Origin: Apostichopus japonicus
Taxonomy: Eukaryota > Echinodermata > Holothuroidea > Aspidochirotida > Stichopodidae
Reading direction: 5' to 3'
DNA: 64,000 nucleotides
Assembly: GCF_037975245.1 (NCBI RefSeq)
Contig: NC_092567.1
Coordinates: 26,208,376 to 26,272,375, forward strand
Made by a program: the position numbers and the translations under genes. This document shows, one piece after another, positions 50,301 through 56,300 of the stretch (position 1 is its first letter; each line of letters starts with the position of its first letter). The notes under the pieces are model-generated. The model ran no database searches, was not told where the DNA came from, and saw only the letters and a program-made list of their open reading frames with translations.

Positions 50301-53300
50301 TGTTTGCATTTTCACCAAATACCATATGTTTGCATTCTCACCAACTACCATATGTTTGCATTCTCACCAACTGCCATATGTTTGCATTCTGACGACCAAC
50401 CATATGTTTGCATTCTCACCAACTACCATATGTTTGCATTCTCACCAACTTCCATATGTTTGCATTCTCACCACCAACCATATGTTTGCATTCTCACCAA
50501 CTACCATATGTTTGCATTCTCACCAACTACCATATGTTTGCATTCTCACCAACTACCATATGTTTGCATTCTCACCAACTGCTATATGTTTGCATTCCAG
50601 CAGATATTATAGTTCCTAGCACATTTATTTTCTCTTATTGAACAGAAAGTTGTGAGTAAGTGATAATTAGTTTAATTATTTCATAACAAGTACATTTCTT
50701 ACTCTGAGTCTCTGACACTAATATCCACATTAACATTTTATGTCCTTGCACATCTTTATATTCTCTGTGTTGCTGATATATTGTTTTTCTATTAATCCCT
50801 TCCTTTGAGGATTCTGGTCTACAAAGTTTTTTGTTAAAATATCTTGGGAATTTTCTTGACTTTGTACATCTCCTTGTGTTCAACTTCCTTTATGCCACGA
50901 GAGCCAGAAATTTGCATCATTATTTTCTTCTCCTATATTTGAGTTTTTTGTCCCGAGCTGGTGCACAGGTGAGGCACCAAGTTATTCTTCACATCAGTAT
51001 CTCCATCATATAACCTTTATCAATAATCATGTACTAGGGTTTCTTAGGTGAGGTACAAAGTTATTCTTCAGTCAGTATGTCCATCATATTATGTGGATCA
51101 ACAATCATGTGCTTGGGTTTTGTCTCACTTTCCTCATACAGCAGCAGGCTGTGGTCAATTCAGATGTGCTCTCAGATGGCAAGTACAGGATATGGTCAGG
51201 AAAGCTAACATGGAGGGAGGTAAGAAAGAATTAAAACCAAAAGAAAATAGAGCTTAGACAGATGTGAGAAACTGTGAAACAGCTGAGATAGTAAAGAAAG
51301 AATAAAATTAAGCAAAATATAGTTCTGACGAAGCAAAGAAAGTGTCCTTGCCAGAAAGAGATTTGCACCAGATATAATCTCTCCTTGAAGAACATTTGAT
51401 ATAAAGTATTGTACTCATCAGTTTTGTCACAGATATTCCTAGTAAGCCAATTCCAACCAGTTGTAATTGGAAATGAACCTTTAAATTATCAAAATTAATT
51501 ATTAGTATTTGTTAGATTATTAGAAGACAAAAGCATCCATGCCTTTCATGTAACTCTTTAGTCAGGAAGTTTATGAATCAAACCAGTTTATGTGTTACAG
51601 TAACAAAATGCATTTCACGGCTGAAATTTCTTTAACATATCAGATAACTTTGCAAAATGTTTGTCATTTGGGTGTAGGTCTTCTTATTATTTGATATGCC
51701 ATAGTTGCATATATGTACAGTATTTGGTTGCATATGCATATGTATTGTGTTGAATATGCATATTGATTTGAACTAGTAATTTTTATCTCAAAGGGACTAA
51801 TAAGCCTTTATATATAACTTGGTTTTAGAATTCTTGTCATGCTAAGTTTCTGTTGGAACCCTGGGTTCTTTTGTCATACTATTGTCCAGAATCATGGTGT
51901 TTATTTTTCTAATGATTTGCAGCTTTATATTCAGTCTTGAGCTGTGTTTTCTCTTCACGATCTAGAACGCAGATAAACCCAAAGAACCGTCCCCCTCGTA
52001 CTCGGTCGTCAAGTGCCATTTCCATGATTTTCATACGGATGCACCAACAACCATCAATGTCTCATCTTGGCCGGATAAGTTTTCAATGCACCTCATTCCA
52101 CGTCATTACATTGTAAGTAGCATAACCCCCTCCCACCCCCTCCCTGCCCCCTCCCCCCAAAAAACAACAGAGATCCTAAAAGAATGACACTAGTGTAATT
52201 TGATATAATGTCTTTTCATGCGACTGGTTATGTTTATTCATAGAACTTGTCAGTACAAAGAGATACAGAACCCACCATGTTTGTATTTCTGCTAGGTTAG
52301 TTAAAACAGTCCGTTGTACTTGAGAAATAAAGTTAAAATTAGAAGAATATCCCACAAGAACAGCAATCTGTTCACTCATGCAACTAGTACACTGTTCCCC
52401 TAAAACAATTGACTACGTATATCTTAGTATCAACCAACGTAATATCATCAGATGGAGATTAACGTCATTAGTCAGAACTTCAGTCCAAAGTTTGCTATGC
52501 AAATAAGGCTAGGCCTAGATACATATGTTTTAGAGTTTGCTCTAGGCATAACAGGTGGTTAACATCTGCTGTTATGTTAAAGCATCATGGTAGAACCATA
52601 ATTGATAGGACTATTAGCATAATTGGCCTTACTGGAATTATCATATTCTGTGATTATAAAATTTGAAATAGAGTACAATCATGATAGTTTTACCTTTTGC
52701 TTCTTTTTGCTTACTTTTACCAAAGCTAATTTTTTCGTTCCTTTGTTTACATCCGGCAGAAATCGATTGAAGAGCACATAAAAGGTGCTAAGAAACTCTT
52801 CATTGAATTTGACAAAGATGACGAAAATAAGAAACAAGTGGATAAGATCACAACTGCACTGTTGGCCGATATGGTGAGTTGTTTATTTATATTTCTCATT
52901 TGCTATTCCTCTGTGAGAGGCATGGCTTATTATTTTGCAGACATGTTTTTGAAATATTAGTCCAAATGTCATTGGTGCAAAGGTACCTGATTACCTGAGA
53001 AATATTTATTTTAAAAGACCAAATTTCTTTGTAGTTAAACTTTGCAACTGAAATTTATGAATTTTTTAGATGGATATTCCTGGTTTTGTGGTAGGCGATG
53101 TATTATGTTTTAGGTCGGTGTCCCTGGTAAAACAATCGGCAGTTAATCAGGATCACCTCAACCTATATTGCTCAGTTGGTAGAGTGTAGGACGTACAACA
53201 TCCAATTATAGACAGTAAGGTCTTACTAACTTGTCAATCCCTACAAGAACTTTAAGCTATAATATAACTGACTGTTAACAGAACCATCTCCCTTCTCACC

Positions 53301-56300
53301 CTCTGGTTTAAGCATTTAGATTAAGTTACAGATTGTGAGGAAAACTTAGTTTAATACCCAGTATGGGCTTTCAAATTGTAAGAATAACAAAAAAAAATTG
53401 CCAACTTCATTGGTTTTATAAACAGTTAAGTAATATAATGTTGAGAGTATAAAAAGAATACATGGCAAAAAAGTGTTGAAGAATTTATACATTTTGAAGA
53501 AAATTATACTAGAATTAAAAACATTTGGCCTGCCTGACTAATATGTACGTTCATAAACGTCTATATTTCTATTCTCTGCCGTAGGTTGGTATTGCCTGCT
53601 ATTTCACTGGTCCCACCAAGATCGGCGTCTTCATTGTGGCTTGCATACGAAGGCTTCAGAAATATGTGGCGCTGGTTCCGGCCCAGCAGAAAGAAGTTTT
53701 GAGAACGTTACGAGATGTCGCAGGTGACAAGATGAGGGTGTACCTACAAGAAATAGCAAAACAGGTGAGAAATACTGACTTTATAGGAAATAGCTGATTG
53801 TCAAACAGTTCATGGCCTTGTATCTGTCTTTTGTAGCCATTCTGCTTACCAACAGAGCACATTTATGACAATGTAGATACAATTTAAAAGAATAGTCCAG
53901 GTCAAAATTTCATTTTGATATGTTAAAGAGGAACATAACCTAAAAGCATTCTGGTGAAATGTGCAATCAATTCCTATGTACGGTTTATATCTCGAAAATT
54001 CCCCAGTTTTTTTTCATTCAATCATATGTCAGAGGGATCTGTTAATGATTGACCCAGTCTTATCAGATGCTAGATATTATATCCTTCAAATGGTACAAAG
54101 TTGACACACTCAACCAGAGATGTGTCAAAGATTGCCCCAGAATTAACTGTCTGCAAAAAGAACTTGCAAGATTACCATACATCACCTAAAATATGATTTT
54201 TATATTGTATTATTTTCATCAACAATTGAGTCAAATTTCTCGAGATGACATAAAGAGCCTGTATCCATTATGTTACTCCCTGTCATTTATGGTTATTTTC
54301 TGTAACAATTTTAATAAATTGGTCATATTTCCATAGCCATCTTGTTTGAAATCATTGTCATTTGTTTGTTACCGTAGCAACCCAAACCTGTGATGCCAGC
54401 CACCACACCAGAGAATGCTCAGACTACATTAACGACTACTACAGCTTCTACTAGCTCTTCATCCAGCACAACGACCTCTGCCAATGACACTAATACCACA
54501 GATAACGCTGAGAACCATACAGGAAAACTAGCTAACATTGGTAACATGATAGGTGGTGACGGTACAGGTTACAACGACATACCCAAGAAGAGCAATCCGG
54601 ACGATCCCAATGAAGATTGGTGCGCCGTATGCCAGAATGGAGGGGACCTACTCTGCTGTGATAGCTGTCCCAGGGTGTTTCATCTACAGTGCCATATACC
54701 GCCTCTCCTCTCCACTCCAAAGTAAGATATATTCTTTGGACATGTCTTTTTGTCTCAGACTTTCTTTCTGTGGTGTCCCTTTGTATCATAAATATTGAAT
54801 AACCAGCAATGAACGTAAACAATGTTTGTGACTTTGACAATATGATTTTGTCAGATTGAGACAGACACAAAGACTGTACAGCCCATCGTGTTTAGAATTT
54901 GATTAACAATTTCAGACTTTTCTCTCAAATGTGAGATTTTCCTTCCTAAACACCTGGCAAAATTAGACCACAAGTTCATTTTTTGGGTGTTTTGCGCTTT
55001 TAATCTGACAGCTCAAAACTGTCATTGTTAACAGAACAAGTCTCTATTGTTTGTTAAGCTACTCTGATGAGGCAGTCAGTACAACTATGACCCTGATGTT
55101 AGGGGTGGTGTGCAAACAATGACCCTGTTGCTAGGGGTGGTGTGCAAACAATGACCCGTTTTTAGTGGCGGTGTGCAAACAAAGACCCTGATGGTAGGGT
55201 TGGTATGCAAACAATGACTCTGTTGGTAGGGGTGGTGTGCAAACAATGACTCTGTTGGTAGGGGTGGTATGCAAACAATGACCCTGTTGGTAGGGGTGGT
55301 ATGCAAACAATGACCCTGTTGCTAGGGGTGGTATGCAAACAATGACTCTGTTTGAGGGGTGGTGTGTAAACGATGAACATGTTGCTAGAGATTGTGTGCA
55401 AGGGGGAAGGGGGAGTGTGCAGATTTTAACTTGTCTCACATTCTCTTTTACAGTGATTCAGTCCCTTGGAGCTGCACTTTCTGTCAAGAGCTTGCAGAGG
55501 AACCTGAAGTACTGGTTGCAGAGAACGGAGTTGTCCAAGACACAGTGGCAGGAACTGAAGAAGCAGGGGAAGGCTCTAGAAAGAGGAAACGAGAGGAAAA
55601 ACTTACAGAAAGAGACAGAAAGGTAAGATGTTTGTTAAATTTCTCAAAGAATTTAAAGGTATTAAGTATTATGACTAAATATGCTAGAAAAGTCAAAGAA
55701 TTGTCACTAGGTATGTTTAAACTTCAACCATTTAAAGGCACTGGACAGTTTCATTCTTTGGGAAATATTGTCAAGATTAACAAACCTCAATGTCTGGATG
55801 AGATTTGGATGGTCAGACCCCTCCATCAAAATACCTACGGAACCTGTAGTAAGTTATGCCTGCTAAACTTAAATAGCAGTAACCTGTACCAAAGGTTAAT
55901 TGCAGATAAGTTGACTTTAGTGTGTTCAGCTATTATCACTCCTTAGTGATGCACATGCTGTTGTGATACCCAGCCTGCCCAGATGCTCAGTCTGCCCTGA
56001 TGCCCAGCCTGCCCTTATGCCCTGCCTGCCCCTATGCCCAGCCTACCCAGATGCCCAGTCTGCCCTGATGCCCAGCCTACCCAGATGGCCAGCCTACCCC
56101 GATGCCCAGTCTGCCCAGCCTGCCCTTATGCCCCGATGCCCTGATGCCCAGTCTGCCCTGATGCCCAGCTTGCCCTTATGCCCAGCCTACTCAGATGCCC
56201 TGCCTGCCCTGATACCCAGTCTGCCCTGATGCCCAGCTTACCCTTATGCCCAGCCTACTCAGATGCCCTGCCTGCCCTGATGCCCAGCCTGCCCTTATGC

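Follow-up and report, generated by a model that had tools for sequence, protein, structure and literature searches.

Does a TIF1-family protein of the sea cucumber Apostichopus japonicus carry an ACID domain, a module known, to our knowledge, only from MED25 and PTOV1? The question is raised by a 64,000-nucleotide stretch of contig NC_092567.1 (forward-strand positions 26,208,376 to 26,272,375; the window, in whose numbering features are given below). In it an initial annotation, made from the sequence alone, had read a MED25/PTOV1-type ACID domain from four exons lying between the coiled coil and the PHD-bromodomain of a TIF1. The TIF1 gene was modeled around these exons as 15 exons on the plus strand (38161-58160), complete and encoding 1132 residues, with all 14 introns of the GT-AG type and phases compatible throughout. 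All eight peptide motifs cited for the domain were found in exons 7 to 10, on the plus strand and in the order claimed, and the residue numbers given for it, 655 to 827, match those of this independent model. Sequence comparison confirmed the observation: a TIF1 with a putative MED25-type ACID domain is genuinely present, and it gives this known family a new architecture.

The ACID block comprises exon 7 (51142-51219, carrying IWSGKLTW), exon 8 (51966-52112), exon 9 (52760-52873), and exon 10 (53585-53764). All four were placed by the motifs and the gene model, with added support from Pfam for exons 7, 8, and 10, from the annotated protein P0003 (described below) for exon 7, and from comparison with MED25 for exons 9 and 10. 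They comprise 173 codons without a stop or frameshift, are flanked by AG and GT, and are each in phase 0 at both ends; one motif, ALLADM|VGIACYF, is split by an intron. The spliced domain matched Pfam family PF11232 with 67.4 bits (E = 1.7e-18, cutoff 25) over profile positions 4 to 149 of 154, which bears out the domain claim of the initial annotation. The score was 63.5 bits in the full-length 1132-residue protein, and the ACID domain of A. japonicus's own MED25 scored 123.7 bits. PF11232 was absent from four control sequences of the insert (its reversal and three of the eight shuffles made), the reversed control giving one subthreshold match to a different family (E = 0.024). When the insert was searched against PDB sequences, human MED25 filled the first 7 of 10 rows (E = 2.9e-6 to 4.3e-5) and the remaining 3 had E > 0.6, and hhalign against a two-sequence MED25 alignment (human and own) returned a probability of 97.4 and an E value of 1.1e-11. 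SPOC, which the annotation had named beside ACID, or another barrel was rejected as the identity of the insert: Pfam to E 10 gave no SPOC match, only PF11232 and a subthreshold DUF1122. The SPOC domain (SHARP/SPEN) has a barrel fold related to that of ACID (part of PMC5355357). At the level of profile matching, exons 7 to 10 are confirmed to encode a predicted MED25/PTOV-type ACID domain.

The host was identified as a TIF1 by its full domain set. Pfam placed a RING, two B-boxes, a PHD finger, and a bromodomain in the 1132 residues, which is, with a coiled coil, the layout of TRIM33, TRIM24, TRIM28, and TRIM66. The PHD-bromodomain part was closest to TRIM33 in a PDB sequence search (5mr8, E = 2e-48), followed by TRIM24 and TRIM66, and the RING-B-box-coiled-coil (RBCC) part was closest to TRIM28 (6h3a, E = 2e-44), in agreement with the family originally proposed. 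RING residues C29, C32, C46, H48, C51, C54, C72, and C75 are invariant in eight aligned TIF1s, as is the YN asparagine of the bromodomain (P0003 residue 1072), which acts in acetyl-lysine binding. The vWA domain (PF11265) was not among the Pfam matches to E 1. A pattern scan for the HP1 box PxVxL, a linker feature of TIF1alpha/beta that is not present in every TIF1, gave no match in the central linker; its sole match, PEVLV at 959, lies between the PHD finger and the bromodomain.

Exons upstream of the ACID block hold the start codon and the first part of the RING (exon 1, 38161-38347, identical to P0003), the remaining RING and B-box 1 (exon 2, 39497-39747), B-box 2 (exon 3, 40640-40797), the coiled coil (exon 4, 41460-41642, inside the stretch aligned to the TRIM28 RBCC 6h3a), the coiled-coil end and a long linker (exon 5, 42497-43567, placed with the TIF1 alignment), and more linker with a SUMO-type IKPE site (exon 6, 45551-45662, ending in phase 0). 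The coiled-coil assignment rests on the TRIM28 alignment and predicted long helices. Downstream come linker and the first part of the PHD finger (exon 11, 54378-54721, starting in phase 0), the remaining PHD and linker (exon 12, 55454-55622), two parts of the bromodomain, the second with the YN asparagine (exon 13, 56677-56751; exon 14, 57575-57727), and the bromodomain end with a basic C terminus and the stop codon (exon 15, 57984-58160). All of these exons are on the plus strand and follow the gene model, together with Pfam for exons 1 to 3 and 11 to 14, the PDB search for exons 11 and 13, and the alignment for exon 14.

Are these exons one transcription unit? A protein search with the domain region, under whole-protein length limits, gave two proteins with E <= 1 among 335 candidates. 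P0003 is the NCBI entry "transcription intermediary factor 1-alpha-like isoform X2 [Apostichopus japonicus]," presumably the isoform name of a RefSeq predicted model, and P0002 is "tripartite motif protein 33 isoform 1 [Apostichopus japonicus]." P0003 is identical to the 15-exon model except for one glutamine at the exon 7 acceptor, where CAGCAG (a NAGNAG acceptor, 51139-51144) allows protein forms with and without this residue; P0002 has the longer form and P0003 the shorter. P0002 comes from another scaffold (698585 bases) and also joins ACID to the PHD-bromodomain in the same strand, frame, and order. Because the phases and splice sites of the 14 introns fit and two proteins on different contigs both make this junction, the gene is probably one transcription unit, a point on which the annotated proteins are indirect evidence. 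P0002 is truncated at the N terminus, and in the bromodomain region its reading frame runs on through a repeat that is intronic. Introns of the TIF1 gene contain tandem arrays at 55083-55401 (32-base units) and 55964-56361 (17-base units); P0002 contains translated repeat from the latter array and is missing part of the bromodomain, and this repeat-containing region is apparently a gene-model error. Precomputed Pfam annotation already gives PF11232 for P0002 and P0003, so the combination had been machine-annotated. The ACID domain alone as query (candidates of ~95 to 303 residues) returned one protein, P0001 (164 residues), which is 100% identical to the query over 15% of its length. It is an open frame that runs through exon 7 into intron sequence on a 1486-base contig, and it is uninformative on distribution.

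In the A. japonicus genome (671.6 Mb, 35 contigs), searches with a PHD query and with the whole protein did not find a second, canonical TIF1, and the TIF1 of this genome is apparently single. The PHD query gave 7 matches, six of them beyond the gene's own locus and 39 to 56% identical (best E = 2.1e-9); two of these six, 1 kb apart, resemble in our reading the tandem PHDs of CHD/Mi-2. The whole-protein search scored 41 of 697 first-look candidates, and among the matches listed those outside the window covered only RBCC residues 2 to 369.

The same genome points to a source for the domain. A PF11232 profile search matched only two exons, on the minus strand of the contig that carries TIF1, and PF11265, the MED25 vWA profile, had four matches, upstream of the two exons and likewise on the minus strand; we take this locus to be the A. 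japonicus MED25 gene. Its ACID domain was read from genomic DNA as four minus-strand exons (24800403-24800335, 24799615-24799472, 24798919-24798806, and 24798624-24798475), all in phase 0; subtraction of coordinates puts them 1.46 Mb away from the ACID exons of TIF1. ACID introns 1 and 2 interrupt MED25 and TIF1 at the identical codon and in the identical phase, intron 3 has the same phase at a position 3 codons off (in two alignments), and the third ACID exon has 114 bases in both genes. The last exon is 10 codons longer in TIF1 (60 versus 50). The chance of two exact matches and one near match is ~1.5e-6, a rough figure in which intron positions are treated as random. A processed cDNA copy would not be expected to share introns, which favors a DNA-level duplication of the exon block into a phase-0 intron, and the ACID domain of TIF1 was most likely derived from MED25 by DNA-level exon shuffling. 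In such an event a four-exon, phase-0 cassette from a MED25-type gene would have entered a phase-0 TIF1 intron with the frame kept, at a site in the linker between the coiled coil and the PHD finger. The TIF1 insert and the ACID domain of MED25 have in common the match to the profile, near full-length in TIF1, the four-exon layout (in the own MED25), and several key basic residues; their hosts differ in that MED25 is a Mediator subunit with a vWA domain, while the A. japonicus host is a TIF1 without one.

The function of the insert was approached through the residues by which MED25 docks activators. Human MED25 contacts transactivation domains (TADs) through K413, P414, I449, Q451, V534, I537, and R538 (part of PMC7564715), and R466 is salt-bridged to p53 TAD2 (part of PMC6222444). 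TIF1 has K, P, S, H, L, L, R, and K, respectively, at these eight positions, and human K447 is also K in TIF1. Human basic positions are still basic at 11 of 18 sites in the TIF1 ACID, versus 9 of 17 aligned sites in the own MED25, and human acidic positions are still acidic at 3 of 9. Permutation of aligned residues, uncorrected for overall homology, gave P = 3e-5 for the 11 basic positions and P = 0.06 for the acidic ones. By these counts the putative TAD-docking basic positions are largely kept, and the basic pattern of the predicted domain is better kept than its sequence as a whole.

We consider it rather probable that a MED25-descended ACID domain in the TIF1 linker captures acidic activators outside Mediator and would restrain them or turn them over. 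Conserved basic patches on the domain would bind the acidic activation domains of factors sitting on DNA, and docking would deliver both the RING ligase and the histone-reading PHD-bromodomain to chromatin where activators are bound. The protein lacks the vWA anchor of MED25, so it would work outside Mediator and may compete with MED25 for the same partners, as is reported for PTOV1; since the host is a TIF1, restraint or turnover of activators would be expected and not plain coactivation. PTOV1, which is not known to have a RING, PHD finger, or bromodomain, is likewise reported as an ACID protein outside Mediator. In part of PMC5355357 MED25 is described as reaching Mediator via its vWA and activators via its PTOV domain, and PTOV1 as not binding Mediator, sequestering CBP from MED25, and repressing. 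By the same source PTOV1 differs from the sea cucumber protein in having two tandem ACIDs, and human PTOV1 and MED25 share a chromosome, as do the TIF1 ACID and MED25 here. A more specific proposal, which we make only tentatively, is that the sea cucumber TIF1 may be a chromatin-gated brake or timer that captures acidic activators directly through an exon-shuffled, MED25-derived ACID, competes with Mediator for them, reads the state of nearby histones through the PHD-bromodomain, and marks the activator or its neighbors through the RING.

Several points weigh against activator capture by a MED25-derived domain. The repressive direction of the effect is one that we infer. The donor could have been a PTOV1-like gene; the genome PF11232 search missed TIF1's own ACID exons, so further divergent copies, including a PTOV1-like gene, could have been missed too. 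An AlphaFold2 model (P0003 with 20 TIF1 rows, 2 with ACID) showed the ACID block not as the seven-strand barrel with three helices expected of this domain but as helices with no strands, at a predicted local distance difference test (pLDDT) score of 23 to 64; its mean pLDDT was 47.9 and the PHD finger likewise scored in the 30s, so that this model weighs neither for nor against the ACID fold. Identity of the TIF1 ACID is 33/156 to the own MED25 and 34/153 to human MED25, versus 48/146 between own and human MED25, which indicates that the TIF1 surface has drifted. Contacts I449 and Q451 are changed to S and H, and 7 of the 18 basic positions (K411, K422, K440, R509, K519, K520, and K545) are not basic. 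The permutation P value for the basic positions carries no correction for overall homology.

The low identity, the two altered contacts, and the 10 additional codons of the last exon also lend force to another possibility, that the domain descends from a true ACID but has been repurposed, with acidic-TAD binding lost in favor of a scaffold role or another partner. We hold this to be possible but unlikely, given that the basic positions, including R538, K447, and the basic residue at 466, are better kept than the sequence overall.

A third explanation makes the domain old: an ancestral TIF1 would have had an ACID, most lineages would have lost it, and the A. japonicus copy would be a relic and not a new gain. 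The phmmer scores leave some room for this. The TIF1 ACID is nearly as far from the own MED25 (38.0 bits) as from human MED25 (30.4 bits), and the two MED25s are closer to each other (96.2 bits), which would fit an old split or fast change; in the three sequences compared, the TIF1 ACID appears to have diverged more, through age or faster change, than MED25 has between echinoderm and human. The distribution of the domain speaks the other way. With P0003 residues 650 to 1131 as the query, 7975 candidates were scored and 466 proteins had E <= 1e-3; PF11232 appeared in the Pfam column for 2 of the 120 among the matches listed, both from A. japonicus. Scanned directly, 7 of 7 further TIF1s were without PF11232 to E 1 (the starfish Asterias rubens and Patiria miniata, the acorn worm Saccoglossus, the bivalves Saccostrea and Mytilus, coelacanth TIF1-alpha, and dugong TRIM33). 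A 20-member TIF1 alignment had PF11232 in 2 members, again both from A. japonicus, and 18 members without it, and when eight TIF1s were aligned, the other sequences lacked an equivalent of most of the insert. Absence from all of these TIF1s means that an ancient ACID would have had to be lost several times, and we judge the relic explanation improbable. The initial annotation had suggested a lineage-specific architecture and a wider look at echinoderm, hemichordate, and other invertebrate TIF1s. That suggestion holds relative to the starfish, acorn worm, bivalve, and vertebrate proteins, in a sample that, judged by row names among the matches listed, is without sea urchins, brittle stars, crinoids, and other sea cucumbers. 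A literature search whose coverage is without most subscription journals found no publication on an ACID-bearing TIF1.

It is more doubtful still that exons 7 to 10 form an insert in decay or seldom used, which most transcripts would skip. Their phase 0 on both sides means that skipping would preserve the frame, but 173 open codons, canonical splice sites, and the near full-length profile match speak against it, and two annotated proteins include the exons. Hardly credible is a gene-model or assembly chimera, with a separate ACID gene nested in the TIF1 gene: all that favors it is the 5.5-kb intron with a 4.5-kb minisatellite between exons 6 and 7, in a gene model built from genomic DNA, and the ACID exon phases fit the TIF1 exons on both sides, P0002 and P0003 agree across scaffolds, and a separate MED25 gene sits elsewhere in the genome.

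A third, unrelated host for ACID would mean that a block of exons encoding an activator-docking module can pass from one gene to another and be retained. Should the domain bind activators, a single polypeptide would combine their capture with histone reading and ubiquitin ligase activity, and the apparently single TIF1 would offer a natural test of corepressor-Mediator competition for activation domains. Gut regeneration, for which A. japonicus is studied, would be a setting of interest for control by an ACID-bearing TIF1; the sea cucumber proteome paper on that subject concerns TRIM71 (part of PMC11050598).

Other features of the window were recorded alongside the gene. Intron 6 is mostly filled by a 26-base minisatellite of ~174 copies (46062-50597, assigned to neither strand) directly before the ACID exons. 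It creates long false reading frames, and we know of no link between it and the ACID insertion. Sequence at 14909-16364 is repetitive, and both of its strands have long open frames. An open frame of 146 residues at 29598-30038, of which the 132 residues from the first methionine had no Pfam match, may represent one exon of an unnamed gene. On the minus strand, an open frame at 30278-30721 also had no Pfam match, and a stretch within it resembles what we take to be the end of a reverse transcriptase of the long interspersed nuclear element (LINE) type.

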